From NCBI RefSeq assembly GCF_003688895.1, contig NZ_REFV01000010.1:62001-126000 (forward strand): a stretch of 64,000 bases of DNA. The letters are read 5' to 3'. The notes under the pieces are model-generated. The model saw nothing but the letters and a program-made list of their open reading frames with translations. It searched no databases and was not told where the DNA came from. Below, piece after piece: positions 3 through 63,534 of the stretch (position 1 is its first letter; each line of letters begins with the position of its first letter). The stretch is from Dokdonia sinensis (GTDB taxonomy: Bacteria; Bacteroidota; Bacteroidia; Flavobacteriales; Flavobacteriaceae). Both the position numbers and the translations under genes were made by a program.

Positions 3-2177
3 GAAGATGGTAGCGCTTCTCTCAATACTGAGAATATGCCCATTGTTGTGTATCAAGGACTTTCTATACACGGAAACGAGCCTAGTGGCGCAAATGCTGG
101 ACTCGTAGCCGCCTACTACCTTGCCGCTGCTCAAGGTCAGAAAATAGATGAATTACTTAAAAATACGGTCATCCTTTTTGACCCCTCATTTAATCCTGAT
201 GGCTTACAACGCTTTGCATATTGGGCAAACACTAACAAAAGCATAAACATAAACCCAGATCCTCAGGATAGAGAATATGATGAAGTATGGCCTGGTGGTC
301 GTACAAACCACTATTGGTTTGATATGAATCGTGACTGGTTACCGGTACAGTTGCCAGAATCGCGTGCGCGCATTGCAACATTTCACGATTGGTACCCAAA
401 CATTTTGACAGACCATCACGAGATGGGAAGCAATTCCAGCTTTTTCTTCCAGCCCGGGATACAGTCTCGCACGCACCCACTTACTCCTGCTCTCAATCAA
501 GAACTTACAAAACAAATAGGTAATTATCACGCAAAGGCGCTGGATAAAATAGGAAGCTTTTATTATACGGAGGAAAGCTTTGACGATTTTTACTATGGAA
601 AAGGGTCTACGTTTCCAGATATTAATGGTGGTATCGGGATTTTATTTGAGCAAGGAAGTAGTCGCGGGCACGCTCAAGAGACGGTAAACGGTCTTCTTGA
701 ATTTCCGTTTACCATACGCAATCAGTTTACCGCCATACTCTCTACGCTAGATGCTGCTCAGGGTATGAGAAAGCAATTGCTGGACTATCAACGCGACTTC
801 TTTAAAAATGCTCGTGGTGAAGAAAAAGGTGGTGCATATGTTTTTGGCAATGAAAAAGATGCGGCAACAGCCTATCATCTAGCCGAAGTACTTAAACGTC
901 ATAAAATAAAAGTGCACGATGTAAAAGGCAGCTTTCGCGAAAGCGGTAAAAATTTTAAAAGCGGTTATTCCTACATAGTTCCCAAAAACCAGAGACAAAG
1001 CAGACTCATCAAGGCGATGTTTGAAAAGCGCACAAAGTTTCAGGACAGCTTGTTTTATGATATAAGTGCCTGGTCTTTCCCGCTGGCCTTTGGATTGGAT
1101 TTTTCTGAAAATGCCTCATTAAGCAATGCTGGAAACGAAATTCAAGATTTGAAAATGCGCACGCCTAAAAATGTATCTCAAAGTAACTACGCCTACTTAA
1201 TGGAATGGCACGAATACTATGCCCCAAAGGCGCTGAATATGATTCTGGAAAAAGGACTGCGAGCAAAAGTGGCGATGGAAACATTCTCGCTCGCAGGTAC
1301 TTCCTATGATTATGGGACAATTATGATTCCTGTTCAAAACCAAGAACTCTCGGCTTCAGAAATGGGAGCCTTTCTTAACAAAGTAGCTCAAGAAGCACAT
1401 ATTGATATCACAGCTGTGGCTACTGGACTTACTGAGGGTATCGATTTAGGAAGTAATCAATTTAGACCACTCTCGCCAGCAAAAGTGGCTATTCTCGTAG
1501 GAGAGGGTACAAATAGTTATGATGCTGGAGAAATCTGGCATTTATTTGATACTCGATATCAAATGAAAATTACAAAACTCGACGTGAAGGATTTTAATCG
1601 GGCTGACATAAGTAAGTATACTGATATTATCCTGCCAGCTTCTTACGGAGCTTATGATAAAACTATAGCCGATAAATTAAAGGGCTGGGTGCGCAATGGT
1701 GGAACATTAATAGGCTACCGCAATGTTGCAAACTGGCTGGAGAATAACAAAATGCTCAATATCGACTTTGTCAAAACTGAAAATCCTGCTAAAAATGTAA
1801 CTTTTGAGCAGCGCAGGGATTTTAGCGGTGCGCAGGTTATAGGAGGAGCGATTTTTGAAGCAAATCAGGACAGATCACATCCTATTAATTTTGGGTACAC
1901 TAATGACAAAATTTCTTTATTTAGGAATACCACAATATTTGTAAAAGCCGATTCTACGAGTTATAAAAACCCTATAAGATATACTAAGAACCCATTACAA
2001 GCAGGATATATCTCTACAATCAATCTGGAAGCAATTCCAGAAACCCGCCCTTTTGTACATCAAAGTTCTGGACGAGGAGAGGTCATTTTATTTACAGATA
2101 ATACCAACTTTAGAGCGTTCTGGTATGGTACAAACAAGTTGCTTATGAATGCTATTTTCTTTGGAGATCAAATGTAA
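3..2177 (+). CDS. M14-family zinc carboxypeptidase-like protein, 5' end outside window
   Basis: The open frame runs in from the left edge with no stop, so the N-terminus (signal peptide and start of the catalytic domain) is missing; the first ATG at 36 is internal. The zinc-binding HxxE of the M14 fold is visible in IHGNEPSG, followed by the family-like FDPSFNPDG segment, a DHHE motif that can supply the third zinc ligand, and ILFEQGSSRG, which probably carries the catalytic glutamate. The C-terminal third (about residues 480-700) has a glutamine-amidotransferase-like alpha/beta layout, as in large Bacteroidota M14 proteins. It is probably exported. The palindrome copy at 931-944 encodes SFRES in a variable region. 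A small membrane-protein gene follows after 6 nt, so the two are probably cotranscribed. Confidence 0.85.
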   Translation, partial: EDGSASLNTENMPIVVYQGLSIHGNEPSGANAGLVAAYYLAAAQGQKIDELLKNTVILFDPSFNPDGLQRFAYWANTNKSININPDPQDREYDEVWPGGRTNHYWFDMNRDWLPVQLPESRARIATFHDWYPNILTDHHEMGSNSSFFFQPGIQSRTHPLTPALNQELTKQIGNYHAKALDKIGSFYYTEESFDDFYYGKGSTFPDINGGIGILFEQGSSRGHAQETVNGLLEFPFTIRNQFTAILSTLDAAQGMRKQLLDYQRDFFKNARGEEKGGAYVFGNEKDAATAYHLAEVLKRHKIKVHDVKGSFRESGKNFKSGYSYIVPKNQRQSRLIKAMFEKRTKFQDSLFYDISAWSFPLAFGLDFSENASLSNAGNEIQDLKMRTPKNVSQSNYAYLMEWHEYYAPKALNMILEKGLRAKVAMETFSLAGTSYDYGTIMIPVQNQELSASEMGAFLNKVAQEAHIDITAVATGLTEGIDLGSNQFRPLSPAKVAILVGEGTNSYDAGEIWHLFDTRYQMKITKLDVKDFNRADISKYTDIILPASYGAYDKTIADKLKGWVRNGGTLIGYRNVANWLENNKMLNIDFVKTENPAKNVTFEQRRDFSGAQVIGGAIFEANQDRSHPINFGYTNDKISLFRNTTIFVKADSTSYKNPIRYTKNPLQAGYISTINLEAIPETRPFVHQSSGRGEVILFTDNTNFRAFWYGTNKLLMNAIFFGDQM
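931..944. repeat. GCTTTCGCGAAAGC palindrome copy in M14 gene
   Basis: Exact 14-bp palindrome, read in frame as SFRES. It belongs to the window-wide family described in the findings. Confidence 0.95.
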
Positions 2178-2183
2178 TTACCT

Positions 2184-2606
2184 GTGAGCACAGACTTTAT
2201 CTGGTTATCAAAGCTTCTTGTTGATTTTGGGCTGGTTGTACTTATCCTTATGGTACAGCTCATTGTTTACCCTAGTTTTAAGTTTTATGACCGCGAGTCC
2301 CTGCTGTATTGGCACAAGTTATATAAGACACGATTAGCAGTTATAGTAATTCCTTTAATGTTTGCGCAAGTCATCCTGAGTGTTATTATAGTATGGAACT
2401 TGAGCACATACGCTATAATTAATGGAATTCTCGTCGTAGGTGTTTGGGTTTCTACCTTTATACAGTTTGTGCCTATTCATAACCGTATAACTAACGAGAG
2501 CTATAAGGAACTAGACTTAGAATTACTTGTAAAACGTAATTGGGTGCGTGTTGCAATTTGGGTTGCAATATTCTCAGTTTCACTATTGCAGTACAATACG
2601 ATTTAG
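2184..2606 (+). CDS. small four-helix integral membrane protein, unknown function
   Basis: This 140-residue protein starts at a GTG 6 nt after the stop of the M14 peptidase gene, so translational coupling is likely. Four hydrophobic stretches are visible (about residues 8-27, 48-70, 75-97 and 118-136), with charged loops containing a Tyr-Trp-His-Lys cluster between helices 1 and 2. The layout recalls small DUF1772-like membrane proteins, but I do not recognise a diagnostic motif. Location is the inner membrane; function is unknown. Confidence 0.75.
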   Translation: MSTDFIWLSKLLVDFGLVVLILMVQLIVYPSFKFYDRESLLYWHKLYKTRLAVIVIPLMFAQVILSVIIVWNLSTYAIINGILVVGVWVSTFIQFVPIHNRITNESYKELDLELLVKRNWVRVAIWVAIFSVSLLQYNTI

Positions 2607-3150: not shown

Positions 3151-3158
3151 CTATAATT

Positions 3159-5406: not shown

Positions 5407-5430
5407 TTTACGCTTTCGCGAAAGCGTAAA
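5407..5430. repeat. extended intergenic palindrome (core GCTTTCGCGAAAGC at 5412-5425)
   Basis: A perfect 24-bp inverted repeat: the 14-bp core extended on each side by TTTAC/GTAAA. It lies 34 bp after a gene stop. As RNA it would form a strong hairpin without a following U-run. Confidence 0.95.
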
Positions 5431-9696: not shown

Positions 9697-10700
9697 TGTT
9701 CGAGGTACCAGTCAATGGTTTTCTCGATACCTGATTCAAAATTTTCGGCGGCTTGCCAGCCTAGACGGCTCTCGATTTTTGATGCGTCTATTGCATACCT
9801 CCTATCGTGCCCCGCTCTGTCTTTTACAAAGGTAATGTATTGTTTATAGCTTGCTCCTTCGGCGAGCGGGTGCTTTTTATCGAGGAGCTCACAGATGTGA
9901 TTTACGATAAAGAGATTATCCTTCTCATTGCGACCGCCTATGTTATAGGTTTCTCCTGAGTCCGCTTTCGCGAAAGCGGTATCTACCCCCACACAATGAT
10001 CCTTTACATACAACCAGTCACGTATATTCTTGCCATCACCATAAATGGGGATAGGTTCCTGCGCCAAAGCTTTGCGCAGTATCGTCGGGATGAGCTTCTC
10101 TTTGTGCTGTTTGGGTCCATAATTGTTTGAGCAATTTGTAATGATCGTATTCATCCCGTAGGTGTGATGGTAACTGCGCACAATCATATCGCTCGCTGCT
10201 TTTGAGGCGCTGTACGGTGAGTTAGGTGCATAAGGGGTTTCTTCGGTAAAAAGCCCTGTTTCCCCTAGTGTACCGTAAACTTCGTCTGTACTCACGTGCA
10301 GGAAACGCGCATTTTCAAAACCATCCTTATATGTAAATGGTGCTTTCATCCAAAATTTATAAGCTACATCCAGCAACGTAAAAGTCCCGTTTACATTAGT
10401 CTGTATAAAAACCTCCGGACCTGTTATGGAATTATCCACGTGTGACTCCGCTGCAAAGTGAATAACGCCAGATATGTTGTGCTTTTTAAATAGATTCTCA
10501 ATGAGTTTTCTATCATTTATGGAACCTTCAATAAATGTGTATCGCTCGTTTTTAGTAATCTCAGAAAGATTTTCCAAGTCGCCCGCATAAGTAAGCGCAT
10601 CTAGATTAATAATGTGCACATCTGGGTGGGCTTCCAGATAATAAGGTATAAAATTAGAACCTATAAAACCAGCACCGCCGGTAACGAGTATATTTTTCAT
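9687..10700 (-). CDS. rfbB: dTDP-glucose 4,6-dehydratase
   Basis: 337 residues of the extended SDR type. N-terminal NAD-binding GGAGFIGSN, active-site STDEVYG and YSASKAASD (Tyr and Lys), plus NNYGPKQHKEKLIPT. It converts dTDP-glucose to the 4-keto-6-deoxy sugar, the second step to dTDP-L-rhamnose. The palindrome copy at 9964-9977 encodes AFAKA in the segment before SGETYNIGG. From memory, the E. coli enzyme has the same number of residues between DH and GETYNIGG, so the palindrome does not lengthen the protein. The start overlaps the end of rfbD by 1 nt. Confidence 0.97.
   Translation of the reverse strand: MKNILVTGGAGFIGSNFIPYYLEAHPDVHIINLDALTYAGDLENLSEITKNERYTFIEGSINDRKLIENLFKKHNISGVIHFAAESHVDNSITGPEVFIQTNVNGTFTLLDVAYKFWMKAPFTYKDGFENARFLHVSTDEVYGTLGETGLFTEETPYAPNSPYSASKAASDMIVRSYHHTYGMNTIITNCSNNYGPKQHKEKLIPTILRKALAQEPIPIYGDGKNIRDWLYVKDHCVGVDTAFAKADSGETYNIGGRNEKDNLFIVNHICELLDKKHPLAEGASYKQYITFVKDRAGHDRRYAIDASKIESRLGWQAAENFESGIEKTIDWYLEQWQ
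9964..9977. repeat. palindrome copy in rfbB
   Basis: Exact 14-mer, extended to CCG...CGG (9962-9979). Reads AFAKA. Confidence 0.95.
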
Positions 10701-11566
10701 TAGGATTGTATTCTAGATAACGCTTCTTGTAACGCAACGTCCCATAGACGTATTGTGATTTTGAAATCGGTTTCGGTTTTAGTGGTGTCTAGCACGCTAT
10801 ATTTTGGTCTTTTGACTTTAGTTGGGTATGCAGAGGATGGAACGGGTTGTACGCTACAGTTGGGGTGGGTTGTTTTAAGTATCGCTTTCGCGAAAGCGTA
10901 CCAACTCACTTCCCCATTATTTGCATAATGATAAATCCCGGTTTTACCGTCCTTCATTTGAGGAATCATTTCCAAAATCGCCATCGCCAAATCCCGTGCA
11001 TAGGTAGGTGATCCTACTTGATCCTCTACCACAGAAATCGAATTTAGTTCCTCACCCAACCTGAGCATTGTTTTTACAAAATTATGTCCAAACTCAGAAT
11101 ACAACCAAGAAGTACGGATGATCAAACTGTTTTCTGGATGTATCTCCATAATTGCCTCCTCACCTTTGCGCTTGCTTCTGCCATAGTTTCCCAACGGTTC
11201 TGTAGGAAAATCTGTTTTGTACGGTTTTTCTCCTTTGCCGTTAAAAACATAGTCTGTAGAAATATGTATGAGACCAATATCTTTCTGAGCACATATACTT
11301 GCTAGGTTTCTTACGGCAACTGTGTTAATCAAATTTGCTTTAGGGCCTTCGTCCTCGGCTTTATCTACATTAGTGTATGCGGCGCAATTAATGATGTAAT
11401 CGCAGTCGTTTACTTTAAAAAACTCTTCTAAAGCTGTAGCATTAACTAGGTCTAACTTTGCTCGCTCAACAAATACAAATTCAAAACTCGTATAAAGTGA
11501 TGCAATCGCCTGAAACTCTTGCCCCAGCTGCCCACCTGCGCCTAGAACTACAATATTTCCTATCAT
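10700..11566 (-). CDS. rfbD: dTDP-4-dehydrorhamnose reductase
   Basis: 288 residues. The N-terminal Rossmann motif GAGGQLGQEF is followed by ISTDYVFNG and the GNYGRSKRKGE active-site Tyr/Lys pair. It performs the last, NADPH-dependent step to dTDP-L-rhamnose. The conserved C-terminal GEVSWYxFA region carries the palindrome at 10884-10897 as WYAFAKAI. In related RmlD proteins this position is typically WYEFAxxI, so the palindrome sits on an existing conserved stretch. It overlaps rfbC by 4 nt (ATGA) and rfbB by 1 nt. Confidence 0.96.
   Translation of the reverse strand: MIGNIVVLGAGGQLGQEFQAIASLYTSFEFVFVERAKLDLVNATALEEFFKVNDCDYIINCAAYTNVDKAEDEGPKANLINTVAVRNLASICAQKDIGLIHISTDYVFNGKGEKPYKTDFPTEPLGNYGRSKRKGEEAIMEIHPENSLIIRTSWLYSEFGHNFVKTMLRLGEELNSISVVEDQVGSPTYARDLAMAILEMIPQMKDGKTGIYHYANNGEVSWYAFAKAILKTTHPNCSVQPVPSSAYPTKVKRPKYSVLDTTKTETDFKITIRLWDVALQEALSRIQS
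10884..10897. repeat. palindrome copy in rfbD
   Basis: Exact 14-mer, read AFAKA within the conserved WYxFA motif. Confidence 0.95.
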
Positions 11567-15247: not shown

Positions 15248-16369
15248 TTACCTTACCCGTTTCTTTCGATTCACTTCATAATCCTGAAAAATCATTTCGC
15301 CCAGTCCTTTCAGGCCAGTGTAAAAAGCTTTTCCTTGATTTGCTTCGGTAAAATGGTCTACAAACTGCTGTAAATATGGGTCGTTTGCAATCATAAAAGT
15401 GGTAATGGGGATGCGTAGCTTTCGCGCTTGACGCGCCCTACTGTAACATTTATTTACAATGTGCTCGTCTAGACCATTGGGATTCTTATAATATCTTCCA
15501 TCCTTAAGTTTGAGGCAGGATGGTTTTCCATCGGTTATATTAAAAATTTGTTTATTGGTATTGCGCTGGCGTCTTAAAATATCCATTGCGAGATCGAGTC
15601 CCGCGACAGTATTTGTATGATAGGGTCCAACTTGTAAATACGGTAAATCTTTAATTTTTATAGGCCAGGCGTCGTTTCCGTAAACAATAATATCTAGTGT
15701 ATCCTTCGGATAACGGGTAGTAATCAATTGAGCGAGCGCCATTGCAACTTTTTTGGCAGGTGTGATTCGGTCTTCTCCATAAAGAATCATACTGTGAGAG
15801 ATGTCAATCATCAGTACGGTACTCATCTGTGCTTTAAAGTGGGTTTCTTCGATAACCAGGTCACTTTCGCGCAAGCGGAAATCTTCTGCACCATTATTTA
15901 TTTGAGCATTCCTAAGACTCTCCGTCATCGAAATACGTTCCAGCGGATCCCCAAAACGATATTCCCGATAATCGCCCGTATGCTCATCACCACGTCCAGT
16001 TTCCTTAGACCTGTGGTTTCCCTGTGCACTTTTCTTGAGCTTCCCAAAAATCTGATCTAATGCACGCTTACGGATAGCACGTTCTGTTTTCTCTGTAATA
16101 GAAGTACCCTTATTTCCGTCTGGAAGCACTTCCTCACGAATGTATCCCTTATCCTTTAATTCTTGTATAAAATCATCTAAGGTATAGTCCTCATTTGTGA
16201 GTTTATACTCATTATCCAATTGTTTGAGCCAGTCCATAGCCTCATCAAAATCTCCCGAGGTATGGGTTATCAATTCTTGAAAAATATCTAGTAATTGGTC
16301 AAACAGTGATTGTTCTGGAGCGTCGTATGTTTTAAAAACGAAACCACTCCTTTGTTGTTCTCTTCTCAT
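15248..16369 (-). CDS. von Willebrand factor A domain protein, partner of MoxR-like ATPase
   Basis: 373 residues, no signal peptide. The N-terminal half is charged and helical. A VWA domain (about 178-360) carries the MIDAS motif MIDISHSM and a later NITDGKPS with the conserved acidic residue. The gene lies upstream of the AAA ATPase gene in the same transcript direction. Such pairs act as chaperones for metalloenzymes or envelope processes. A decayed palindrome copy (CTTTCGCGCAAGCGG, 15864-15878) encodes the LRES portion of DFRLRESDL. Confidence 0.87.
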   Translation of the reverse strand: MRREQQRSGFVFKTYDAPEQSLFDQLLDIFQELITHTSGDFDEAMDWLKQLDNEYKLTNEDYTLDDFIQELKDKGYIREEVLPDGNKGTSITEKTERAIRKRALDQIFGKLKKSAQGNHRSKETGRGDEHTGDYREYRFGDPLERISMTESLRNAQINNGAEDFRLRESDLVIEETHFKAQMSTVLMIDISHSMILYGEDRITPAKKVAMALAQLITTRYPKDTLDIIVYGNDAWPIKIKDLPYLQVGPYHTNTVAGLDLAMDILRRQRNTNKQIFNITDGKPSCLKLKDGRYYKNPNGLDEHIVNKCYSRARQARKLRIPITTFMIANDPYLQQFVDHFTEANQGKAFYTGLKGLGEMIFQDYEVNRKKRVR

Positions 16370-17166: not shown

Positions 17167-17188
17167 TTACGCTTTCGCGAAAGCGTAA
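17167..17188. repeat. intergenic palindrome copy (core 17171-17184)
   Basis: A 22-bp perfect inverted repeat, the 14-mer core extended by TTAC/GTAA, in the divergent gap between the FAS1 gene and the BNR-repeat gene. Confidence 0.95.
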
Positions 17189-17310: not shown

Positions 17311-20300
17311 ATGAAAAAATTTCTCTCCTTATTCCTATTGTGTGCCTGCACCATCGCGAGCGCTCAAAAACTCGATATGTCCTTGCTCAAGGATATGGAA
17401 CCTCGTAACATAGGTCCTGGTGGTATGTCTGGCCGTGTGACGGCTATAGATGTGGTGACAGATAATCCAGATGTAATGTATGTAGGAACAGCTTCTGGAG
17501 GTTTATGGAAATCCACTTCTGGTGGGATAAAATGGGATCCTATTTTTGATAACGAGCTTACCGCTTCCATAGGTGCGGTGGCGATACAGCAGTCTAATCC
17601 GTCTGTAATTTGGGTAGGAACGGGAGAAGGAAATCCTCGTAACTCTTTAAATGGAGGTTTTGGCGTTTATAAATCATTAGACGGCGGGAAAACCTGGAAG
17701 TCTATGGGGCTGGAGAAAACACGCCACATACATCGTGTGATTATAGACCCTACAAATCCAGATGTGGTTTATGTGGGTGCTATAGGTTCGCCTTGGGGAG
17801 AGCATCCAGAACGTGGTTTATATAAAACGACAGATGGTGGAGCCACTTGGAACAAAATCCTATTTGCAAACAATAAAACTGGAGTCGCAGACCTTGTTAT
17901 GGACCCAACAAATCCTAACAAACTCCTCGTCGCAATGTGGGAACATAAGCGTGACCCGTGGTTCTTCAAGTCTGGTGGAGAAGGCTCTAGCCTTCAAATG
18001 ACGCACAACGGCGGGAAAACTTGGAAAAAACTAACCGATAAAGACGGTTTGCCCAAAGGTGACCTAGGCCGTATAGGTCTTGCAATTGCTCCCGGAAGTC
18101 CAAATATCGTTTACGCACTTATAGAATCGAAAAAGAATGCCCTTTACAAATCTGAAGATGGCGGTTTTACTTGGAAAAATATTAACTCAAACGACGACAT
18201 AGGAAACCGTCCATTTTACTACTCAGACATTCACGTAGATCCAGACAATGAAAACCGCGTGTTTTCTGTCTTTACTTATGTAAACGTGTCTGAAGATGGA
18301 GGGAAGAAATTTAACCAACTTATGGGCGCTTACGGTGTCGATAATGGTGTACACCCGGACCACCACGCCTGGTGGATTCATCCTAATAATGGAAAGTTTA
18401 TGATGGATGGAAATGATGGCGGTCTCAACATTACAAAAGATGGTGGAAAAACGTGGCGTTTTATCGGGAATCTTCCCGTGGCGCAGTTCTATCATATTAA
18501 TGTAGATAATGAGTTTCCTTACAATGTGTACGGAGGGATGCAAGATAATGGTTCTTGGAGAGGCCCAGCCTACGTTTGGAGAGCGCAAGGAATACGAAAC
18601 GATTACTGGCAGGAAATCTCTTTTGGAGATGGTTTTGATGTAGTGCCAGATCCGGACGATAGTCAGTACGGTTGGACGATGAGTCAGCAGGGATATGTAA
18701 GTCGTTATGACTGGAAAACTGGGAATAACTATGGCGTGCGTCCTACGCATCCCGACCCAGATGTTTATTTACGATTTAACTGGAATAGTGCAATAAACAT
18801 TGATCCATTTGACAGTAGTACGATTTATTTTGGGAGTCAGTTTGTACACAAGAGTACAGATAAGGGGCTCACTTGGGACGTGATTTCTCCAGATCTCACG
18901 ACTAACGACCCAGAAAAGCAAAAACAAAGTGAATCTGGCGGACTCACAATGGACGCCACAGGAGCCGAAAACCATACGACTATCCTTGTGATTGAACCTT
19001 CGCCCGTAGAGCGCAATATGTTTTGGGTAGGAACAGATGACGGCCGTGTGCATTACACACAAAATGGTGGAGAATCCTATACCGAAGTCTCAAACAACCT
19101 TAAAGGTTTGCCCAAGGGAAGCTGGGTAGCACAAATTAAAGCCAGCAACAAGAATAAAGGAGAAGCGTTGCTTATAGCAAATGACTACAGACGATTTAAC
19201 TACACACCGTATGCTTACCGCACCACAAACTACGGTAAAACGTGGACCCGTATTGTAGATGAGAACGATGTACAGAGCTACACTCTTTCCATTATCGAAG
19301 ATCCAGAGGAGAAAAACCTCCTTTTCTTAGGAACTGATGATGGACTCTACGTTTCTGTGGATGCTGGGGATAACTGGCAAAAATGGACCAAAGGTTTTCC
19401 TACCACTTCGGTTAAGGACCTTGTGATTCACCCTAGAGAGCACGATTTGGTCATTGGTACTTTTGGCCGTGCCGCTTGGGTGCTGGATGACATCAGACCA
19501 TTACGCGCAATTGCAAAGGATAGAAGTACGCTTTCGCGAAAGCTTACCCTCTTCCAACCTCCTACGGCTTACGATGCCGCTTATCAACAACCTACGGGTA
19601 GTCGTTTTGGTGGAGATGCACTTTACAATGGGGATAACCGTAGTGGTGGTGCTCCGATTGCATATTTTTTCACGAAAGTGGAAGAGTCAAAAAAATCAAA
19701 AGGTAGAGACGATGATGAGAGTGCTTCGCAGACTCGCAATAAGGAAGAAGAGACTGAAGATGAAGCTCCAGACGCCGACAATGAAAAAGATGACGACACA
19801 CCGAAATGGGATTCCATACACTTAAAAATTTATGATGGAACACGCCAAATTCGTCATTTAAAATGGAAAACTCCAGACAGTACAGGATTGCACAAAACCA
19901 CATGGTATATGCGCGAGGCTGGTGGAGACCGCCCTTCCAGAAGCACACGAGAACGTAAAAATGAGCCAGGTGGAGTTTCGGTGAAGCCAGGGACTTATAA
20001 ACTGGTGATGGAGTATGGCGACCAGTCTAGTGAATCTTCTATTACGGTAAAAAGTGATCCGAGATTTGAAACTCCGCAGAAAGCTATAAACGATGCTTAC
20101 GACGCTGGAAAGAAACTCGAGGGTTACACACAAACCGCCGCAGATGCCGTAAAACAACTTGTCAAAAGCAAAACCATTGCCGAGGATTATAAGAAAATGA
20201 TCAAAAAGCTAGATGATGATAAAAAATATAAAGATGATTTAAAGGAGATAGGGAAAATGACGAAGAAAATTGATTCTGTCATTGCGCTCTATCTCGGTAC

Positions 20301-24147: not shown

Positions 24148-24167
24148 TACGCTTTCGCGAAAGCGTA
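24148..24167. repeat. intergenic palindrome copy (core 24151-24164)
   Basis: A 20-bp perfect palindrome, the core extended by TAC/GTA, in the divergent gap between the S9 peptidase and DUF2254 genes. Confidence 0.95.
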
Positions 24168-25581: not shown

Positions 25582-27624
25582 ATGAAAATATTTAAAAAAC
25601 TCTCTGTCTTCCTATTTTTCTTCTGGACAATTATAATCGCAGCTCAAACCGACACTCGCTGGCAAATAGCCGATAACAATTCTATAGAGTGGATTATTGA
25701 AGGTTCTGCCCTTCCCCACTCCGATAATATTGAGATGGCAGGTCGCAAAGTCGCTGGTATCGTACATTACAAAGTAGACAGTCTTGGGATATTAAGCGTT
25801 GAGCGTGAAGTTATCTTCCCACAATTGCATCCATTTATCAAAGAAACCGACCCGTGGTGGCAAAAATATAGAGCCTACCTAAGAGAAACATTTACAGATG
25901 ATATCTTGCCAAAATTCTACATAAACGACAAGCAGTTTGTTCCCGGAAAACTCAAGAAAGTAACCATAGATGGTATGATAACCTTTGAACACGAACCTAG
26001 TTTGAGTGGGATTACGCTTTCGCGAAAGTTTTATCCTTCGACGAGTAACCGTCTATTTGTAGAAGAGTTAATTTTTAAAAATGAAACTCAAAATATAATT
26101 GATATTAGTGAAACTCACAGCGGAGTTGGGATTGAGGCTCTAGGAAAAAAGGGTACTTTTAACATACAAATCATTCCACAGACTGGTTTAAATAAATTTG
26201 ATGGATTTACGTTAAAATCGAACGAAAAACAATCTATTAATGTTTATTTTTTGGCAGGTCTAAATCAGGAAGACCCTTTAGAATATAACACTCAAACTAA
26301 GGTAAGATTAGATCGACAATCCTTCCTCAAAGAAATGTCCTCAAACCTAATCCTAGAAACCCCAAACCCAGTTCTAAATCAGCTCTTTGAATTTTCAAAA
26401 ATCAGGGCGTCCGAAAGTATTTTTGATTCTAAGCTTGGGCCTATTCACTCCCCAGGTGGAGGACGTTACTACGTAGGAACTTGGGCAAATGACCAAGCGG
26501 AATATGTGAGTCCTTTCTTTCCTTATCTTGGTTATGAGCTGGGGAATGAAAGCGCGATGAATACCTACAAAGCCTTTGATAGCGTAAAGTCGCCCGATTA
26601 TGAAAAAATCCAATATGCCTTTGAGGTAGAAGAACTCGCACCGCCTGCTAAACTCGACCGTGGTGACGCCTCAATGATAGCTTATGGAGCCAGCCAGTAC
26701 GCTCTCGCCAGAGGAAATCGTGAGGAAGCCGAAAGAATATGGGAGCTTATAGAATGGTGCCTGGAATACAACCATCGTAATTTAAATGATGAAGGTGTCG
26801 TAAAATCTGAAAGTGACGAGATGGAAGGCCGCATTGAAACCGGAACGGCAAATCTCTCTACTTCATCCTTGTATTACGGAGCCCTCACAAATGCAAGGTA
26901 TCTTGCCAAAACCCTAGGCAAATCAAACAGACTCATCAAGACTTACGAAAAGCGTCAAAAAAACCTTTACAAATCCATCGAGAGCTATTTCGGTACAAAT
27001 GTGGAAGGACTGAATACGTATAAATATTTTAAAGAACATAAAAACTTGCGCCATTGGATCTGTCTCCCGCTCGTAATGGATATTGATGAGCGCAGGGATG
27101 AAACGGTTGAGGCGCTTTTTGACAAACTCTGGGGAGACAATGGAGTATATGTAGAACGCTCGCATCCCGATCCTGCAAACTCAGAAATCTTTTGGGACCG
27201 AGGAACTCTGTATGCCTTGCGAGGAACTTTTAGAACTGGTGCGACAGAAAAATCCTTACAACGCCTAGAAGAATTCTCTAAAACAAGATTATTAGGTGAA
27301 CGCGTTCCCTATGTGGTAGAAGCCTACCCTGAAGGCGCGATGGCACACCTTTCTGCAGAGAGTGGCTTGTATTGCCGTGTTTTTACAGAAGGTCTCTTCG
27401 CTATAACACCCACAAGCTTTAACAGCTTCACAATGCAACCCAGATTACCCAATGATTGGAATGCGATGGCATTGCGCAAGATCAGATTATTTGGGAAGGA
27501 TTTTGATATTGAAGTAAAACGTATCGGAGATAAATATAACATCAAGGTTCTGGATAATACTACGGGAACTCTCCTAATGGATAAGAATGATGATCTGGAG
27601 AAAGCAATTTCTTTTAAATTTTAG
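25582..27624 (+). CDS. secreted six-hairpin glycosidase-like protein
   Basis: 680 residues with a signal peptide ending near IIIAAQ. The N-terminal third is beta-rich. From about residue 260 there is a helical-toroid-like catalytic region with GTWANDQAEYVSPFFPYLGY, ETGTANLSTSSLYYGAL, HLSAESGLYCRVFTEGLFAI and WDRGTLYALRGTF, recalling (alpha/alpha)6 six-hairpin glycosidases. The exact GH family is not recognised; an acidic catalytic residue is plausible at WANDQAE. The palindrome-like site at 26016-26028 encodes TLSRK. It may degrade polysaccharide or glycoprotein in the periplasm. Confidence 0.7.
   Translation: MKIFKKLSVFLFFFWTIIIAAQTDTRWQIADNNSIEWIIEGSALPHSDNIEMAGRKVAGIVHYKVDSLGILSVEREVIFPQLHPFIKETDPWWQKYRAYLRETFTDDILPKFYINDKQFVPGKLKKVTIDGMITFEHEPSLSGITLSRKFYPSTSNRLFVEELIFKNETQNIIDISETHSGVGIEALGKKGTFNIQIIPQTGLNKFDGFTLKSNEKQSINVYFLAGLNQEDPLEYNTQTKVRLDRQSFLKEMSSNLILETPNPVLNQLFEFSKIRASESIFDSKLGPIHSPGGGRYYVGTWANDQAEYVSPFFPYLGYELGNESAMNTYKAFDSVKSPDYEKIQYAFEVEELAPPAKLDRGDASMIAYGASQYALARGNREEAERIWELIEWCLEYNHRNLNDEGVVKSESDEMEGRIETGTANLSTSSLYYGALTNARYLAKTLGKSNRLIKTYEKRQKNLYKSIESYFGTNVEGLNTYKYFKEHKNLRHWICLPLVMDIDERRDETVEALFDKLWGDNGVYVERSHPDPANSEIFWDRGTLYALRGTFRTGATEKSLQRLEEFSKTRLLGERVPYVVEAYPEGAMAHLSAESGLYCRVFTEGLFAITPTSFNSFTMQPRLPNDWNAMALRKIRLFGKDFDIEVKRIGDKYNIKVLDNTTGTLLMDKNDDLEKAISFKF
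26016..26028. repeat. palindrome copy in glycosidase-like gene (13 of 14 bases)
   Basis: GCTTTCGCGAAAG followed by T instead of C; reads TLSRK. Confidence 0.85.
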
Positions 27625-36745: not shown

Positions 36746-36759
36746 GCTTTCGCGAAAGC
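36746..36759. repeat. intergenic palindrome copy
   Basis: Exact 14-mer immediately after the terminator and 37 bp before the YbjQ-like gene. Confidence 0.95.
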
Positions 36760-45158: not shown

Positions 45159-45779
45159 ATGCCAGTGGTGGTATTGCTGTTTATGGCCGCTTTCGCGAAA
45201 GCGCAATCCGCACAGACACTACTTAAAGAAGTAGATGCTAAGGTAAAAAGCTACGAGAATATCGCCATAGATTTTAAATACGGACTGAGCAATGATGCCG
45301 AAGGTATTAATCAAGAAACACGCGGAAACGTAGTGTTACAAGGAGATCTTTATAAACTTGATCTTATAGGAACGACGCAATTATTTGATGGAAAAAATGT
45401 GTATAGCATATCTCCAGAAGATGAAGAAGTAACTATAAGTCCTATGAGCGACCAAGATCCTGACGCAATTACACCATCTAAAATGTTATCATTTTTTAAT
45501 GATGGATATAGACAGGAAATGGACATTTCTCAAAATGTACAAGGTCGTACCATACAATTTGTAAAACTCACTCCTATAGATTCTAATAGTGAAATAAAAT
45601 CTACATTACTGGGAATAGATAAGCAAACCAAGCACATTTACAAGCTTATTATTTCTCAAAAAAATGGCTCTAAAATCACAATTACCGTAAACTCATTTAA
45701 AACAAACCAGCCTATGGCTAAAAATATGTTTGTTTTTGATGAGAGTAAATACAGTAACTACTACATCAACAAACTCTAG
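45159..45779 (+). CDS. lolA: LolA-like outer-membrane lipoprotein carrier protein
   Basis: Start taken at ATG 45159 (206 residues) because it gives a normal signal peptide, MPVVVLLFMAAFAKA before QSAQ; an in-frame ATG at 45060 would add 33 basic and hydrophobic residues. The mature part has the LolA-type KVKSYENIAIDFKYGL, VVLQGDLYKLDLIGTQLF-like strands and LLGIDKQTKHIYKLIISQKNG. It carries lipoproteins across the periplasm. The palindrome at 45189-45202 encodes the AFAKA at the cleavage site. It sits between ftsK and an LptF/G-like gene. Confidence 0.9.
   Translation: MPVVVLLFMAAFAKAQSAQTLLKEVDAKVKSYENIAIDFKYGLSNDAEGINQETRGNVVLQGDLYKLDLIGTTQLFDGKNVYSISPEDEEVTISPMSDQDPDAITPSKMLSFFNDGYRQEMDISQNVQGRTIQFVKLTPIDSNSEIKSTLLGIDKQTKHIYKLIISQKNGSKITITVNSFKTNQPMAKNMFVFDESKYSNYYINKL
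45189..45202. repeat. palindrome copy in lolA signal peptide
   Basis: Exact 14-mer; reads AFAKA, ending in the A-x-A expected by signal peptidase I. Confidence 0.95.
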
Positions 45780-48777: not shown

Positions 48778-48791
48778 GCTTTCGCGAAAGC
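48778..48791. repeat. intergenic palindrome copy
   Basis: Exact 14-mer, 70 bp after ribB. Confidence 0.95.
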
Positions 48792-50207: not shown

Positions 50208-50894
50208 ATGAAAAATTCAATAAAAATTACGATAGCAGATCCGTGTCACGAGGATTGGACACAAATGACCCCTCAAGAAAAAGGGAGACATTGCGATTCT
50301 TGTGACAAACTTGTCATAGATTTTTCTCAAACTACTGATGAACAATTGTACAAACGCGTACAACGAGGTGGCAAAATATGTGGTCGCTTTAAGCCAGAGC
50401 AATTAGATAGGGAAATTACGCTTTCGCGAAAGCGTAAAAATCCATTTTTAGACTATGCCGCTACCCTACTCATACCAGCAGCAATTTTTTCTACACAGAA
50501 CATTAATGCTTCTAACGTATCTAAATCGCCACAAATCGAGACCTCGTCATATAAAAGTCTTAACATTTCGTCTTTAAATAGAACCCAAAAAAATGTTGTT
50601 GCCGAAAGTAATTCGGAAACACTTCTCACGATAAAAGGAACGGTTTCTGATAGTCACGGTCCCTTATCTGGAGCTATAGTTACAGTTAAGGGTACTGACA
50701 GATTTGTTAAGACCGATGAAAATGGCAATTACAAAATTGACATCAGAAAAGGGGATACACTAATTTTTGACCACATTGCTTACAATCGACGCGAAGTAAT
50801 TATTGAAAAATGCCAAAAATATAATGTAGTCTTAGAGCAACATATGATCATGGGAGAGATTGGAATTATGGGCAGAGTTTCTATAAACAAATAA
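50208..50894 (+). CDS. Cys-rich N-domain + single helix + carboxypeptidase-like regulatory domain protein
   Basis: Start at ATG 50208 (MKNSIKITIA, 228 residues). The N-terminal 60 residues carry four Cys in PCHEDW, GRHCDSCDK and GGKICGRF, a pattern common in Flavobacteriia that may bind metal. Then comes a basic stretch TLSRKRKN encoded by the palindrome at 50420-50433, one hydrophobic helix (about 83-98), a linker, and a CarboxypepD_reg-like beta sandwich (about 142-220; GTVSDSHGPLSGAIVTVKGT). The topology is likely inside-N, outside-C. Confidence 0.8.
   Translation: MKNSIKITIADPCHEDWTQMTPQEKGRHCDSCDKLVIDFSQTTDEQLYKRVQRGGKICGRFKPEQLDREITLSRKRKNPFLDYAATLLIPAAIFSTQNINASNVSKSPQIETSSYKSLNISSLNRTQKNVVAESNSETLLTIKGTVSDSHGPLSGAIVTVKGTDRFVKTDENGNYKIDIRKGDTLIFDHIAYNRREVIIEKCQKYNVVLEQHMIMGEIGIMGRVSINK
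50420..50433. repeat. palindrome copy before membrane helix
   Basis: Exact 14-mer, extended TTAC...GTAA; reads TLSRK. Confidence 0.95.
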
Positions 50895-53495: not shown

Positions 53496-54214
53496 ATGCT
53501 AGTTAAAAGGACAAACATCGAAAATAGATTGCGTAGACAACGCGATTTGGATCTTAAAGGTGATGACATTTTAAGACAGGTTGAAAGGGTTTTTGAAGAA
53601 GACCGCTTTCGCGAAAGCGCTATTATAAACAAACTATCAGGCAAGGACCTCTCTGTTGCCAATAATTTTAAATTTGACTTATTAGAGTCTAATAGGATTT
53701 TTCACATAGACCAAATTAGGGAAACTTGTATAAGGTATCGACTACGATTTCTGGACACAAAATACTTTAAGGGCAAATATCCACAGGCCGCTGTTGCTGA
53801 AATTAAGTATCTAGAGAATGTGCACGAGACGGCTCTGGACGGCTTTAAAATTATAGCTCCATCAAAAATGTTTGTACTTGAAAAGTCAGATGATCCTCTA
53901 CTTTTTGCTCCTATGGGCAATGATTATTATTATTTAGTACACAAATGGGGCAACGACCTACACCCTTTAAGAAGGTGGTTAATGTGGCCATACAAAAGTT
54001 TTGAAAATTTAATATTTGCTGTTTTTTTAGTTAGCATGGTAGCAACCTTTCTAATACCTGACGGTTTGTTTGCAAAAGAGCAATCTTTTTCTCAAGATGT
54101 GATGGTATTTTTCTTTATGTTTAAATCTATTGCTGCTGTTGTCATTTACTATGGTTTTGCAGCAGGCAAAAACTTTAATCCAGCAATTTGGAATAATAAA
54201 TTTGATAAAACTTA

Positions 54215-56502: not shown

Positions 56503-57936
56503 ATGTTAGAGACACTTACACCTCCCGTTTTTAAGCTTCGGAATTATATAGTAATTGCGCTTTTATCCTTTCTAAGCTGTAATAATAATGCGAAGGAAAA
56601 GGCGGCTCATACCTACCTTGGTGGAGAAATTGTAAATCCAAAAGGTAAAAGTGTAAGTATATTTAAAAATGGAATTAAAATAGGTAGTACCCCTTTAGAT
56701 AGTAATAACAGGTTTCTATACAAGTTTGGTGAGAATTTTAAACCTGGACTTTATCGCTTCTATCACGGAGAAAATCAAGTGGCTTTTATTGAGGAAGGAG
56801 ATAGTCTATTATTAAGATTGAATACGCTCCAATTTGACGAGTCTGTCAGTTTTTCTGGATATGGGGAGGCAAAAAATAATCTCTTGATTGATTTTTTCCT
56901 GATGTACGAAAATGAAAACAAGATTCTACCAGAGATTTTTCAAAGAGATCCTGAACAATTTATTGCTGCACTAGATTCTATGCTCGCTATTAGGCAAGCG
57001 AGGATAGATTTGTACTATTTAAAAAATGACCCTTCAGAAAGTTTTGACAAACTCGCACAAAACACATTGCAATTAGATAACTATCAGCGTAGGGAGAGTT
57101 ATCCCTTTTCTCATTATGGAAGGGATAAAATAAAATTTATTGAGTCTTTGCCAGAGGGTTTCTATGATTTTCGCGAAAGCGTATCCTTAAATGATGAAGA
57201 ATTATATGGCTCATACTCATACCAACGTTATTTAAATTACCATCTGGATCATCTGGCATATATGAAATATGCAGCTGAAAAACCTTATAATACTATCTCA
57301 TACATTCACAACTTTTATGAACTTGAGATTATTGACAGTCTAATTACATCTCCCATAATAAAAGATAATATGTTACATCGTGTGGCACGTAACTTTCTGG
57401 CAAATAGTAACAATACGGAAGAGGTGGATAAATTATATAATAAGTTTAATGACTATGTAGTAAGTGATAAAACAAGGAAGGAAGTAAAAACGCTGTATGA
57501 TAATTATGCCTATACTGCTGCGGGCACAGAGATTCCTGACTATATGGTTGTAGATCCGGAAGGAAGAATAACAACGCTTAAAGGAATTCTTACAAAACCA
57601 ACAGTATTGTTTTTTTGGTCTTTATCTAATATGCAGCAGATGGATCACATCCACCTTAAGGTAAAAGAGCTTAAAAGTAAGTACCCCGAGTATAATTTTA
57701 TAGGGATAAATACGAGTAGCGATACCGAAAAATGGCGTAAGGTTGTAAAACAGAGAAAATTTCAAGTAAATCAGGAATTTCAACTCAAAAATAGAGCCGA
57801 AGCATTAAGACAATTAAGTGTAAATAATTCTAACAAGGCAATAATTATTGCTGGAGATGGCAAGGTCCTTAACAGCCACGCCAACCTTTACAGCGCTAGC
57901 TTTGAAAATGATTTATTAGGTTATTTGAATAAATAA
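56503..57936 (+). CDS. TlpA/thioredoxin-like lipoprotein lacking the redox CxxC
   Basis: 477 residues; the signal segment ends at a lipobox-like SFLSC (Cys 26). An N-terminal beta domain (about 35-120, DUF4369-like) is followed by a helical middle and a C-terminal thioredoxin-like fold (about 345-477: IPDYMVVDPEGRITTLKGIL, TVLFFWSLSNMQQM). The active-site position that is WCxxC in TlpA reads WSLSNMQ, so no thiol chemistry is expected. A partial palindrome at 57169-57183 encodes DFRES. Confidence 0.83.
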   Translation: MLETLTPPVFKLRNYIVIALLSFLSCNNNAKEKAAHTYLGGEIVNPKGKSVSIFKNGIKIGSTPLDSNNRFLYKFGENFKPGLYRFYHGENQVAFIEEGDSLLLRLNTLQFDESVSFSGYGEAKNNLLIDFFLMYENENKILPEIFQRDPEQFIAALDSMLAIRQARIDLYYLKNDPSESFDKLAQNTLQLDNYQRRESYPFSHYGRDKIKFIESLPEGFYDFRESVSLNDEELYGSYSYQRYLNYHLDHLAYMKYAAEKPYNTISYIHNFYELEIIDSLITSPIIKDNMLHRVARNFLANSNNTEEVDKLYNKFNDYVVSDKTRKEVKTLYDNYAYTAAGTEIPDYMVVDPEGRITTLKGILTKPTVLFFWSLSNMQQMDHIHLKVKELKSKYPEYNFIGINTSSDTEKWRKVVKQRKFQVNQEFQLKNRAEALRQLSVNNSNKAIIIAGDGKVLNSHANLYSASFENDLLGYLNK

Positions 57937-59604: not shown

Positions 59605-60987
59605 TTATTTTTTCAGATCTGCAAAATATAGTTTTGCCCTTTTCATCACTCTTGGCGCCATCCATATCGTAGCAATCATGGTGGGAATCGCCATTAACGC
59701 AAAAAAACCATCTATGAGGTTAATCATCATACTAAGGCTCATCGTCGCACCCATAAAGATGCTTAGAATGTAAAAGTAATTGTAATACTTTTTATTTTTT
59801 GCCCCTAGGATAAAGCTTAAACATTTGGTTCCATAATAAGAATATGAGAATAAGGATGAAATACTGAATACTGCGATGCACAGCATTAAGATATACTTTC
59901 CTGTAGTAGGTAACGCTTTCGCGAAAGCGGAAGCCGTAAGACTCACTCCATTTGCATCAGAACTTTGCCAAACACCTGTGACTAAAATTGCCAGAGCCGT
60001 AAGCGTACAAACCACTAATGTATCAATGGCTGGACCCAGCATTGCGACTAAACCTTCTCTTACCGGTTGCGAAGTTTTTGCAGCTCCGTGAGCCATAGGT
60101 GCGGTACCGATACCCGCTTCATTAGAGAATGCCCCTCGCCGAATTCCTAAAACAATTAAAGCTCCTACAACCCCACCCAGAAATGGCTCTCCCGTATAAT
60201 TATTTGCAAAAAAAGCATCTGTAAATATTAGTTTTAAATATCCCGGAAGCACCTCTATGTTTACAACTAGAATATAAAGTACCGCCACAAAATATAACCC
60301 GACCATAAAAGGCACAAGCTTTGACGTCGTGGCGCCTATTCTTTTTATTCCACCCAAAATCACAACCGAAGTGATGGCTACAAGAACTGTCCCAATCCCA
60401 AGATTTGTATAAAGGGAGACCTCGATTCCTTGTGGTCTTAAAATAATGTCATTTATTGCCTGTGTAAGTTGGTTTACATTAAATACGGGAAGAGCTCCCA
60501 CAAGACCTGCCACACTAAAAAAAATTGCGAGCGGTTTCCAAGACCTGCCAAGACCTTCTACTATAAAATACATCGGACCGCCCTGTACCTCTCCCGCCGT
60601 GTCTCTGCCGCGATACATTATGGCTAGCGTACCCGTAAAAAATTTTGTTGCCATACCGACAATTGCGCTTATCCACATCCAGAAAACCGCACCTGGACCG
60701 CCTATAGCAATAGCTACAGCAACACCAGCAATATTCCCCATACCCACAGTGGCGCTTAAAGCCGTAGTAAGTGCCTGAAAGTGAGAAATATCACCTGGAT
60801 CACTGGGGTCGTCATATTTTCCACGTAACACCTGTAAGGCGTGTCCTAGATACCGAAAAGGCAAAAATCGCGAATACACCAAAAGAAAAAATCCGCCTCC
60901 AATGAGAAGAAACAATAATGGCAATCCCCATATCGCAGATGAGAAATCTGCAATAATAGATTCTAGAGAGTTTTGCTGTATATCCAT
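59605..60987 (-). CDS. sodium:alanine symporter (AGCS family)
   Basis: Start at the ATG ending 60987 (MDIQQNSLES, 460 residues). About ten membrane helices; the family signatures HFQALTTALSATVGMGNIAG, GPGAVFWMW and GAFSNEAGIGTAPMAHG are clear. It imports alanine or glycine with Na+. The palindrome at 59915-59928 encodes AFAKA in an extramembrane loop. Confidence 0.96.
   Translation of the reverse strand: MDIQQNSLESIIADFSSAIWGLPLLFLLIGGGFFLLVYSRFLPFRYLGHALQVLRGKYDDPSDPGDISHFQALTTALSATVGMGNIAGVAVAIAIGGPGAVFWMWISAIVGMATKFFTGTLAIMYRGRDTAGEVQGGPMYFIVEGLGRSWKPLAIFFSVAGLVGALPVFNVNQLTQAINDIILRPQGIEVSLYTNLGIGTVLVAITSVVILGGIKRIGATTSKLVPFMVGLYFVAVLYILVVNIEVLPGYLKLIFTDAFFANNYTGEPFLGGVVGALIVLGIRRGAFSNEAGIGTAPMAHGAAKTSQPVREGLVAMLGPAIDTLVVCTLTALAILVTGVWQSSDANGVSLTASAFAKALPTTGKYILMLCIAVFSISSLFSYSYYGTKCLSFILGAKNKKYYNYFYILSIFMGATMSLSMMINLIDGFFALMAIPTMIATIWMAPRVMKRAKLYFADLKK
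59915..59928. repeat. palindrome copy in symporter gene
   Basis: Exact 14-mer; reads AFAKA. Confidence 0.95.
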
Positions 60988-61057
60988 AAGTAATAATAAC
61001 ATCCTCAAGTAACAAAAAATAAAATTAAACTATATTAGAGCCTCTTAATAATTTCAT

Positions 61058-62266: not shown

Positions 62267-62451
62267 CGTTATTATCTGATGTTTGTATAGTTTTCAGAGT
62301 CATCGGTTAGGACAAAATGAGATTTAATATCTCAATACATTAAAAAGGCTCGAATTAAAGTTATAGTCCAAAAGATTATCATACTTATAACAGCGCATTA
62401 CAGATTCCTTAAGATTTCGGTATCTTATTACTTGGTAACTTCGTAATCGCT

Positions 62452-63534
62452 ATGAAACTATCTACTAAGGACATACAAAAGATTATCAAAAACCCTGAAC
62501 ATACTGCTATAATGGCAGATTTAATATATGTGGGGAAGGAACATTTTACGCTTTCGCGAAAGCGGAATAAAGAAGATTTTGAATACTATCACCGTGATAA
62601 ACCCCTCACTAAAGAGGAACAGCTTAACCGTATTAAAAATCTTGTAATCCCTCCAGCGTGGAATAACGTAAAAATTGCAGAACCCCTAAATGGTCATCTT
62701 CAGGTTGTAGGAAGAGATGCTAAAAACCGAAAAGTATATCGCTACCACCCTTTATGGTCAAAACTCAGAAATCAGACCAAGTTTTTTAAACTAGCAGCTT
62801 TTGGTAATATACTTCCTCAAATAAGAGCAGCCGTAGATAAGGATCTTGATCTAAAAGGAATGCCTAAACGTAAGGTGCTTGCCCTAGTGCTGAGAATAAT
62901 GGAAGAAACGCATATTAGAATAGGTAACGATTACTACGCGAAGAAAAACAAGACCTATGGATTATCTACATTACGTACACGTCATGTTGAGACATACAAA
63001 GACAAAACCAAGTTTGAGTTTGTAGGTAAAAAAGGGAAAGAACACAGCATTACCTTGCGCAACAAGAAGCTTGCGCGCTTAGTAAATAGATGTGAAGAGA
63101 TCCCCGGGTGGGAACTCTTCCAGTATGTAGATGACCGTGGAGATAAACATAGTATAGATAGTGGTCTTATAAATGACTATATACACGAGGTAAGTGGAGA
63201 TATGTTTTCGGCAAAGGACTTTAGGACTTGGGGAGCGACCAAAACATTCTTCGAGACTTTACACGATATAGGATATACACCTGACTCAAAGGAGAATAAA
63301 TCAAATATCCTCAAAGGTTACGACGCCGCTGCAGAAGCTCTGGGTAACACGAGAACCGTTTGTCGCAAGTACTACGTTCATCCTCAAGTAGTAGAGGCCT
63401 ACGAAACAGGCACTATAGTTGAGAGTTTTGAGAGATTAGACAAATTAAAAAACACAAAAAAACACTTCTCCCAGTCTGAAGAAGTGCTTCTTGATATGAT
63501 ATCCAATTTCAAAATTAACTTAACTACTGATTGA
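62452..63534 (+). CDS. DNA topoisomerase IB
   Basis: 360 residues. N-terminal [10 protein letters not shown] and [16 protein letters not shown], then catalytic-domain motifs [32 protein letters not shown] and the active-site Tyr in [14 protein letters not shown]. It belongs to the bacterial/poxvirus-type IB enzymes that relax supercoils. The palindrome at 62550-62563 encodes TLSRKR at the place where homologues usually have a basic RxRxG motif. It overlaps the convergent purC by 11 bp. Confidence 0.96.
62550..62563. repeat. palindrome copy in topoisomerase IB gene
   Basis: Exact 14-mer; reads TLSRK. Confidence 0.95.

Follow-up and report, generated by a model that had tools for sequence, protein, structure and literature searches.

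A palindrome iterated across the genomes of Dokdonia sinensis and some related flavobacteria looks like a genome-wide recognition tag

Copies in the window, the genome and the family

What reads a perfect 14-bp palindrome that recurs every few kb in a flavobacterial genome, and what is it for? The window studied here, a 64-kb stretch of the Dokdonia sinensis genome, contains 16 exact copies of GCTTTCGCGAAAGC, all of which had been listed in a preliminary description made from the sequence alone and were confirmed in place. Copies within open reading frames are found at 931..944 (ORF 36-2177, plus strand), 9964..9977 (ORF 9687-10700, minus), 10884..10897 (ORF 10700-11566, minus), 19530..19543 (ORF 17311-20565, plus), 30263..30276 (ORF 29671-30399, minus, with a product that appears, by reading of its sequence, to be response-regulator-like), 50420..50433 (ORF 50139-50894, plus), 53605..53618 (ORF 53496-54215, plus), 59915..59928 (ORF 59605-61008, minus), and 62550..62563 (ORF 62452-63534, plus). 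Intergenic copies are found at 5412..5425, as part of a longer palindrome TTTACGCTTTCGCGAAAGCGTAAA, at 17171..17184, 24151..24164, and 36746..36759, and at 48778..48791, 80 bp away from a small SRP RNA gene. One mismatch is present in the copies at 26016..26029, 33708..33721, and 34179..34192, and two in the decayed copies at 15863..15876 and 57167..57180. The 13-of-14 copy described at 26016 therefore stands, the one placed at 34180 begins at 34179, and 33708, described as decayed, is a third; 15863 and 57167 match at 12 of 14 bases as decayed copies, and the sequences near 8510 and 38090 have more than two mismatches.

The copy at 43300..43313 encodes AFAKA in the variable linker of a gene termed FtsK-like, whose match to the FtsK model is below the curated cut-off. 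An exact copy is located at the corresponding place in G397, and G404 retains AFAKA with a copy having one mismatch; the exact copy is absent from this linker in G371, G412, G241, G010, G394, and G190. The next ORF contains the copy at 45189..45202, and an exact copy after the FtsK-like gene is also found in G371, G412, and G404, with similar letters following it, and in G190, where the following letters are less alike.

Up to two mismatches allowed, 21 copies were seen in the window against 0.27 in dinucleotide shuffles, and the whole 3.65-Mb genome contains 857 exact copies, whereas its reversed-letter control gave none. In a 464-kb sample of the genome, whose GC content of 39.4% agrees with the earlier figure of about 40%, 106 exact copies were counted where an order-2 Markov model predicts 0.0018, so that the excess over chance claimed at first is borne out and the motif is neither near its Markov expectation nor confined to the window. 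The TACG...CGTA extension noticed in many copies is present on both sides in 22 of these 106. Mismatched forms are also enriched: G000 and G397 together (1.664 Mb) contain 438, 46, 75, and 89 copies with zero, one, two, and three mismatches, compared with 0, 0, 2-4, and 35-42 in three order-3 simulations.

The strong over-representation, as is typical of DUS and USS, is limited to some genera of the Flavobacteriaceae; a window protein has its closest named relatives in this family, and proteorhodopsins matched PDB 9jou/9jov. All 18 genomes searched from the genus of the source genome contain 369-905 copies each, and two other genera contain 408-664; the remaining family members sampled have 0-19, and the phylum sample beyond the family has at most one. 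Average density varies among genomes, from one site in 3.7 kb to one in 8 kb. In other genera, some copies seem to flag DNA acquired by transfer. Small samples of relatives' loci yielded, as other repeated 12- or 14-mer palindromes, just a few two-copy A/T-rich words, and 51 motif-poor FtsK loci (a small sample, 272 kb) held no 12-mer palindrome above four copies in total. As in the preliminary description, no published description or function of GCTTTCGCGAAAGC was found; the literature matches held just the 10-mer TTTCGCGAAA and, judged by title, none is about such a palindrome.

Architecture, spacing and turnover of the sites

The palindrome is the core of a site of ~56 bp that is constrained far above its surroundings, with base preferences extending ~21 bp on each side; the 14-bp motif first described thus holds as the core, not as the extent of the site. 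Each flank carries ~5.5-7 bits of preference, and these preferences are genus-specific, i.e., they form dialects. As a separate observation, one intergenic pair in G010 and G241 has matching changes on both flanks. On both strands the 5' flank is C-poor and G/T-rich for ~20 nt. Deamination of an exposed single strand was considered as a cause of the C-poor flanks, but in intergenic DNA from -15 to -6 C goes down while G goes up, and C-to-T change alone does not fit because G rises as well.

Flank positions -k and +k do not covary above composition in G000. In g1 and g11, where coding and intergenic copies were treated separately, the positions do not covary as sets either, although single ones reached z of up to 2.4 and -3.1 among 80 tests; this lack of covariation speaks against an extended hairpin. 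The wide footprint, the dialects, and the lack of general flank covariation suggest that the reader is a twofold-symmetric DNA-binding protein or complex on duplex DNA rather than an RNA hairpin. The hexamer TCGCGA, named earlier as the core, is indeed inside the motif (136 of its 190 occurrences in 464 kb are within TTTCGCGAAA), but is not the unit, because outside TTTCGCGAAA it occurs 54 times against 60 expected.

Copies avoid one another, with 17 pairs less than 1 kb apart against 105 expected, and this exclusion, which reaches 1-2 kb, persists when coding and intergenic classes are preserved in the randomisation. Along the closed chromosome G397, counts in 60 samples were more even than random and showed no gradient of the ori-ter type (P 0.47 in a first-harmonic permutation test), while the largest of 89 gaps in 400 kb, 17.7 kb, is about the value for random placement. 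Intergenic DNA is preferred, yet half of the sites are in genes, in all three frames. Convergent intergenic regions are the richest (35 copies in 14.1 kb), and divergent (35 in 32.8 kb) and tandem gaps (101 in 76.2 kb) are about equally rich. Motif density is not linked to codon typicality in G000 (rho 0.01) and is weakly negatively linked to it in G397 (rho -0.15, P 0.02), so that no preference for core-like DNA is seen; in G397 it also correlates weakly and positively with GC (0.16, P 0.01) and with noncoding share (0.19, P 0.004).

Between close genomes, sites change by point substitutions. For example, G010 and G241, which are 10% divergent, have 24 of 29 alignable sites in common, and each of the other five has a same-length counterpart in place, with one to three mismatches and no gap; 8 of 33 and 22 of 50 sites (30 of 83 together) are not alignable and are silent on insertion. 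At this close distance the sites thus behave like DUS and USS, with copies both in and between genes changing by point substitution, and the empty sites of REP- or MITE-type insertion were not seen at the aligned positions. Between G000 and G397, the partners of non-shared coding sites mostly have at least four mismatches (14 of 16) or gaps in the aligned stretch (8 of 16), so that stepwise change is invisible at such a distance.

The palindrome is also present on some temperate phages, one of which has six regularly spaced copies, including two that deviate at a single base. Neither a relevant phage nor a relevant plasmid was recovered with a 32-base consensus as query. The phage copies, the exclusion zone, and the dialects go beyond the preliminary description.

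Possible functions of the sites

Our first choice, by a narrow margin and at a probability of roughly 0.37, is that the site may be a tag by which cells recognise their own DNA for homologous exchange, an uptake sequence of natural transformation. In this scenario, site-bearing DNA would be favoured during uptake or recombination, biased transfer would spread sites, intact donors would repair them, and the reader would have evolved together with its dialects. A second site within ~1 kb would add nothing since the same fragment carries both, which we propose as the origin of the exclusion zone. The high copy number with an empty reversed-letter control, the even counts without an ori-ter gradient along G397, the exclusion of close pairs, and the intergenic preference combined with a genic half of the sites that uses all three frames are all consistent with such a tag, as are the constraint, the turnover by point substitution, the dialects, and the enriched mismatched forms. 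ComEC and DprA were detected in all 29 genomes, 16 of them motif-rich, but do not discriminate, because the 13 motif-poor genomes have both. Natural transformation has been described in Flavobacteriaceae, with Riemerella columbina favouring DNA of its own; in the part of the k-mer table used here, which covers short k-mers only, A/T-rich repeats predominate (PMC7965970).

Known uptake sequences, in the portion of the comparison cited here (PMC1939737), have high copy number with many copies inside ORFs, do not change via insertion or deletion of the whole sequence, and show graded enrichment of mismatched forms. Like DUS of Neisseriaceae and USS of Pasteurellaceae as outlined there, the palindrome is abundant in coding and intergenic DNA, is not inserted as a whole, has enriched mismatched forms, is clade-limited, and differs between species groups. 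Unlike them, it has a perfect 14-bp palindromic core and a symmetric ~56-bp footprint, excludes close pairs, and occurs on temperate phages. The same source portion gives known uptake sequences as non-palindromes, ~10% of which occur as inverted repeats; in the present genomes, by contrast, close pairs are almost absent. Also unfavourable to an uptake tag are the excess of exact over one-mismatch copies (438 to 46), the lack of a positive link to codon typicality although core-like DNA is expected to be richer, and the invisibility of stepwise change between G000 and G397. The phage copies would make more sense if DNA already in the cell benefited from the site as well.

A possibility that we hold about as tentatively, marginally behind the first choice, is that the sites form a regularly spaced array of long symmetric addresses, read by a symmetric complex that acts on any resident DNA, so that temperate phages evolved correctly spaced copies; the sequence would then be of a kind distinct from uptake sequences, Chi, HIP1, and partition sites alike.

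It is doubtful that the sites organise the chromosome through a symmetric protein of the nucleoid or partition type, akin to ParB, Noc, SlmA, or MatP, that would bind every few kb along the whole chromosome and shape or space the nucleoid. The sites of ParB (parS), Noc, SlmA, and MatP are palindromes of 12-16 bp to which symmetric proteins bind, but are tens in number and zoned, whereas the present sites number hundreds without an ori-ter gradient, and zoning of that style near ori or ter was not seen in G397. The palindromic core and ~56-bp footprint without general flank covariation, the regular spacing and exclusion, the equal richness of divergent and tandem gaps, and the regularly spaced copies on a temperate phage would suit such a protein, but gaps of up to 17.7 kb (89 gaps, 400 kb) persist at about the random value, and relatives with 0-9 copies would have to do without a core function. 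An additional ParB is an unlikely reader, for among nine motif-rich genomes ParB_N matched once in eight and twice only in G371, with no shared extra copy; the parS and Noc core strings tried were absent from the 1.66 Mb sampled.

Less likely, the site is an entry site for recombination or repair, a two-way counterpart of Chi, where a helicase-nuclease would stop at the palindrome and the incoming G/T-rich strand would be a good 3' end for RecA loading. Chi, too, recurs throughout the chromosome, every few kb in E. coli, and RecA favours GT-rich DNA, so the C-poor, G/T-rich 5' flank of ~20 nt on both strands, the exclusion under 1 kb, and the carriage by phages speak for this idea. However, Chi is short, oriented, and not palindromic, and a palindrome cannot be oriented; moreover, a near-invariant 14-bp core, contacts to 21 bp, and position-specific dialects resemble protein binding, not the signal of a translocating enzyme.

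We consider it quite improbable that the palindrome resembles HIP1 in being coupled to an orphan DNA methyltransferase and to mismatch repair or restriction. The part of the HIP1 study consulted (PMC4390886) presents HIP1 of cyanobacteria (GCGATCGC) as a highly iterated palindrome, with conserved extensions past the core in some genomes, that is linked to methyltransferases of internal sites. The likeness to HIP1 or uptake sequences drawn at first holds in that our motif is an iterated, near-exact, chromosome-wide palindrome of many copies, but it differs from GCGATCGC in sequence, length (it is longer), and phylum, and the suggested co-distributed methyltransferase found no support among C5 enzymes, which do not track the motif and are absent from four of nine motif-rich genomes (G371, G412, G241, and G190). 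In addition, the inner hexamer is not enriched outside the long motif, and the recognised length is far above that of usual methyltransferase sites.

An RNA-level element, either an intrinsic terminator or an mRNA hairpin, is very improbable even though RNA of an extended consensus copy has a stable fold (-12.7 kcal/mol) and convergent regions are richest, because none of 129 tandem intergenic copies has the four-T run in the first nine downstream bases that a terminator of hairpin plus U run would have, the copy density of divergent regions comes close to that of tandem ones, the flanks, taken as sets, show no covariation, and half of the copies are in genes. A REP- or MITE-like mobile palindrome or neutral repeat spreading by insertion, which the many near-identical copies and the alignment gaps at 8 of the 16 sites not shared by G000 and G397 might suggest, is equally improbable in view of the same-length substitutions at all five non-shared aligned sites of G010 and G241 and of in-frame copies inside genes.

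Meaning for flavobacteria

The overall picture looks like a genome-wide recognition tag kept intact by selection, and to our knowledge no earlier genome-wide recognition sequence of this sort is known in Bacteroidota. Whatever process reads the sites now has a measured length scale, the exclusion zone. If the palindrome organises the chromosome, hundreds of mapped sites are available; if it serves in uptake, it would reveal how some flavobacteria distinguish their own DNA from foreign DNA.

Distribution among genomes, shared DNA and phages

We found that all sixteen exact copies of the 14-bp palindrome (TCGCGA at its core) reported in the preliminary description lie where it had placed them, 11 inside ORFs of the ORF list and five (5412, 17171, 24151, 36746 and 48778) between ORFs. 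With three near-copies at one mismatch and two at two mismatches, the window holds 21 matches at up to two mismatches, versus 0.27 in shuffled windows. The genome-wide count that the same description had proposed gave 857 exact copies in 3.65 Mb (43 contigs), and a control with the motif letters reversed gave 0 copies in the same genome. A Bacteroidales small SRP RNA gene (Rfam RF04183, 48872-48978) lies 80 bp from one copy. Searches of open-access PMC full text with the 14-mer, shorter forms and topic terms found no description of the motif.

In the window's own genus (g1), all 18 genomes searched, five of them 76-89% complete, carry 369-905 copies. Among the 397 genomes of the family sample, 80 have any match; the counts are 578, 664 and 609 in a second genus (g11), 408 in one genome of a third (g191), and 0-19 in the remaining genera. 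Counts of 16-19 in two genomes of g77 (G076, G286) and 17 in one of g52 (G051) are intermediate, above background and below the motif-rich genera. In the phylum sample, any match was found in 22 of 395 genomes, with a maximum of 6 besides the window's own genome and at most one copy per genome outside the family. An FtsK tree (60 rows), built from one gene by a quick method that does not distinguish gain from loss, supports a group of g1, g191 and g145, the last with 6-9 copies, and places g11 separately; its starred branches require at least two state changes of motif richness. The FtsK-like protein of g191 (G190:C1:2127457-2129808) is 88% identical to that of the window over residues 275-814 and 61% over residues 1-214.

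In seven low-copy genomes (G078, G087, G336, G012, G101, G214 and G350), some or all copies lie within related DNA (loci L229-L237 and L248) with genes of copper/heavy-metal resistance type, encoding efflux, multicopper oxidase and P-type ATPase functions as read from translations of L229. The main aligned pieces are 72-95% identical between genera, and two copies are 933 bp apart in G078, G087, G101 and G214, a spacing also found, from coordinates alone, in G160. G101 has four of its six copies outside this DNA, and a stretch of G349 has no match to it. The copies in the shared DNA can be read as passengers of DNA whose source would be a motif-rich lineage.

A pattern scan of viral contigs, which selects phages for having the motif, yielded at least 120 stretches. 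Among the matches listed, 27 of 133 exact copies passed a filter that required GC below 46% and flanks poor in C, and several of the 27 come from the same phage in different contigs. Some motif-bearing contigs encode portal, capsid, tape measure and terminase proteins, and three have an integrase or Mu-type transposase match. A 30.6-kb integrase-encoding contig (IMG/VR 3300038696_000259; L453, L061) carries exact copies at 4111, 10256, 14736 and 22721 and one-mismatch copies at 19657 and 26694, and these six are spaced more regularly than random (P 0.006). The apparent counterpart of 19657 in a related contig (L451) also has one mismatch, but not the same one, so this site was probably once intact. 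No copy within two mismatches was found in Nonlabens phage P12024S (35,000 of 35,700 bases), whose host genus may not be motif-rich, or in Cellulophaga phage phi39:1 (27,544 of 28,760 bases), the capsid protein of which is 45% identical.

Anatomy and turnover of the site

The unit is the whole 14-mer: TTTCGCGAAA occurs 136 times in 464 kb of the window's genome, 106 of these inside the full 14-mer. C adjoins the core at 87% of sites in g1 and 94% in g11, and constraint reaches about -21. From about -20 to -6, C on the 5' side falls to roughly 5-10%, as does G on the 3' side, versus 15-20% farther out, in both coding and intergenic copies. Each flank holds 5.5 bits in g1 (437 sites) and 7.1 bits in g11 (83 sites, counting close relatives separately), with 0.2 and 0.75 bits, respectively, at -45 to -23; the g191 sample comprises 11 sites. 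The genera also have their own dialects: at -2, A is favoured in g1 (59%) and C or T in g11 (76%), and T is favoured at -7 in g1 (58%) and at -10 in g11 (83%). Flank positions -k/+k, tested as a set, showed no covariation. Flank constraint, dialects and this lack of covariation suggest a symmetric protein that would contact duplex DNA over about 56 bp. In a lone case, a 34-bp near-palindrome (G010:C1, about 164679), changes between the two genomes of a closer pair, G010 and G241, match on both flanks.

These two genomes diverge by 10.1% over aligned DNA, at which about a quarter of sites would be expected intact without constraint (0.9 to the 14th power). Among alignable sites (25 of 33 in G010 and 28 of 50 in G241, the others being dropped), the two genomes have 24 in common, and the remaining 5 differ by 1-3 mismatches at unchanged length. 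In gap-free 34-column alignments of 23 sites picked for exactness in G010, substitutions number 1 in 322 core positions and 39 in 460 positions of the ten-base flanks on each side. The window's genome was compared with a closed chromosome (G397) through reciprocal best pairs, from a set of 132 that excluded, in the end, those with under 50% identity. Shared coding sites number 11 of 20 and 11 of 18; at the non-shared ones, the partner has at least four mismatches in 14 of 16 and gaps in the aligned stretch in 8 of 16. In the FtsK-like gene, the site lies within a variable linker in both genomes and at another place in g11; the linker of genome G404 retains AFAKA with a one-mismatch motif.

Placement and spacing

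In 1.2 Mb spaced evenly along the G397 chromosome, with our own gene calls, 177 of 332 copies are intergenic, 154 coding and 1 overlapping, where the noncoding share is 10.9%, N stretches included. Intergenic copies number 35 in 14.1 kb of convergent, 101 in 76.2 kb of tandem and 35 in 32.8 kb of divergent context; coding copies have codon offsets of 0 (87), 1 (27) and 2 (40). In 464 kb of the window's genome, 66 copies are coding and 40 intergenic. In coding copies the palindrome translates, according to its reading frame, as AFAKA, LSRK or FRES, so that these peptides recur in copy-bearing proteins of both genomes.

No gradient was found around the G397 chromosome (first-harmonic permutation P 0.47), and the number of copies in each 20 kb varies less than at random (variance/mean 0.52, P 0.0005). 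In 400 kb of the window's genome, the spacing CV is 0.65 versus 0.98 at random, the lower value being reached in 0 of 5000 random draws, and the longest gap is 17.7 kb, so the right tail is uncut. Both genomes together have 17 pairs closer than 1 kb versus 105 expected and 35 at 1-1.5 kb versus 51, with ratios of 0.8-1.3 farther out; g11 has 0 versus 21 below 1.25 kb and 4 versus 12.5 at 1.25-2 kb. The close-pair exclusion persists in g1 under a control preserving coding and intergenic classes.

Candidate readers and putative function

The methyltransferase link raised in the preliminary description was not supported for the C5 family (PF00145), which four of nine motif-rich genomes lack and 8 of 19 motif-poor ones have. 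ParB_N is single in eight of the nine motif-rich genomes and double in G371, with extra copies in motif-poor genomes as well, and ComEC and DprA occur in all 29. Comparisons of these four families revealed no reader, that is, no protein or complex recognising the motif. The phage copies, along with the steep fall from exact to one-mismatch copies (438 to 46), speak for a reader that would act inside the cell.

Judging by the exclusion zone, one site may serve about 1 kb around it, a second would add nothing, and distant DNA need not carry one. Under biased uptake or recombination of fragments, sites would increase where the same fragment carries no other site, and intact donors would supply replacements for broken ones. 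An organising protein would also yield such a zone, as would a repair entry site. Considering the dialects, the turnover by point substitution, the patchy occurrence among genomes and a resemblance to uptake sequences already described (PMC1939737), a tag for uptake or recombination may be placed narrowly first among the possible functions of the motif.
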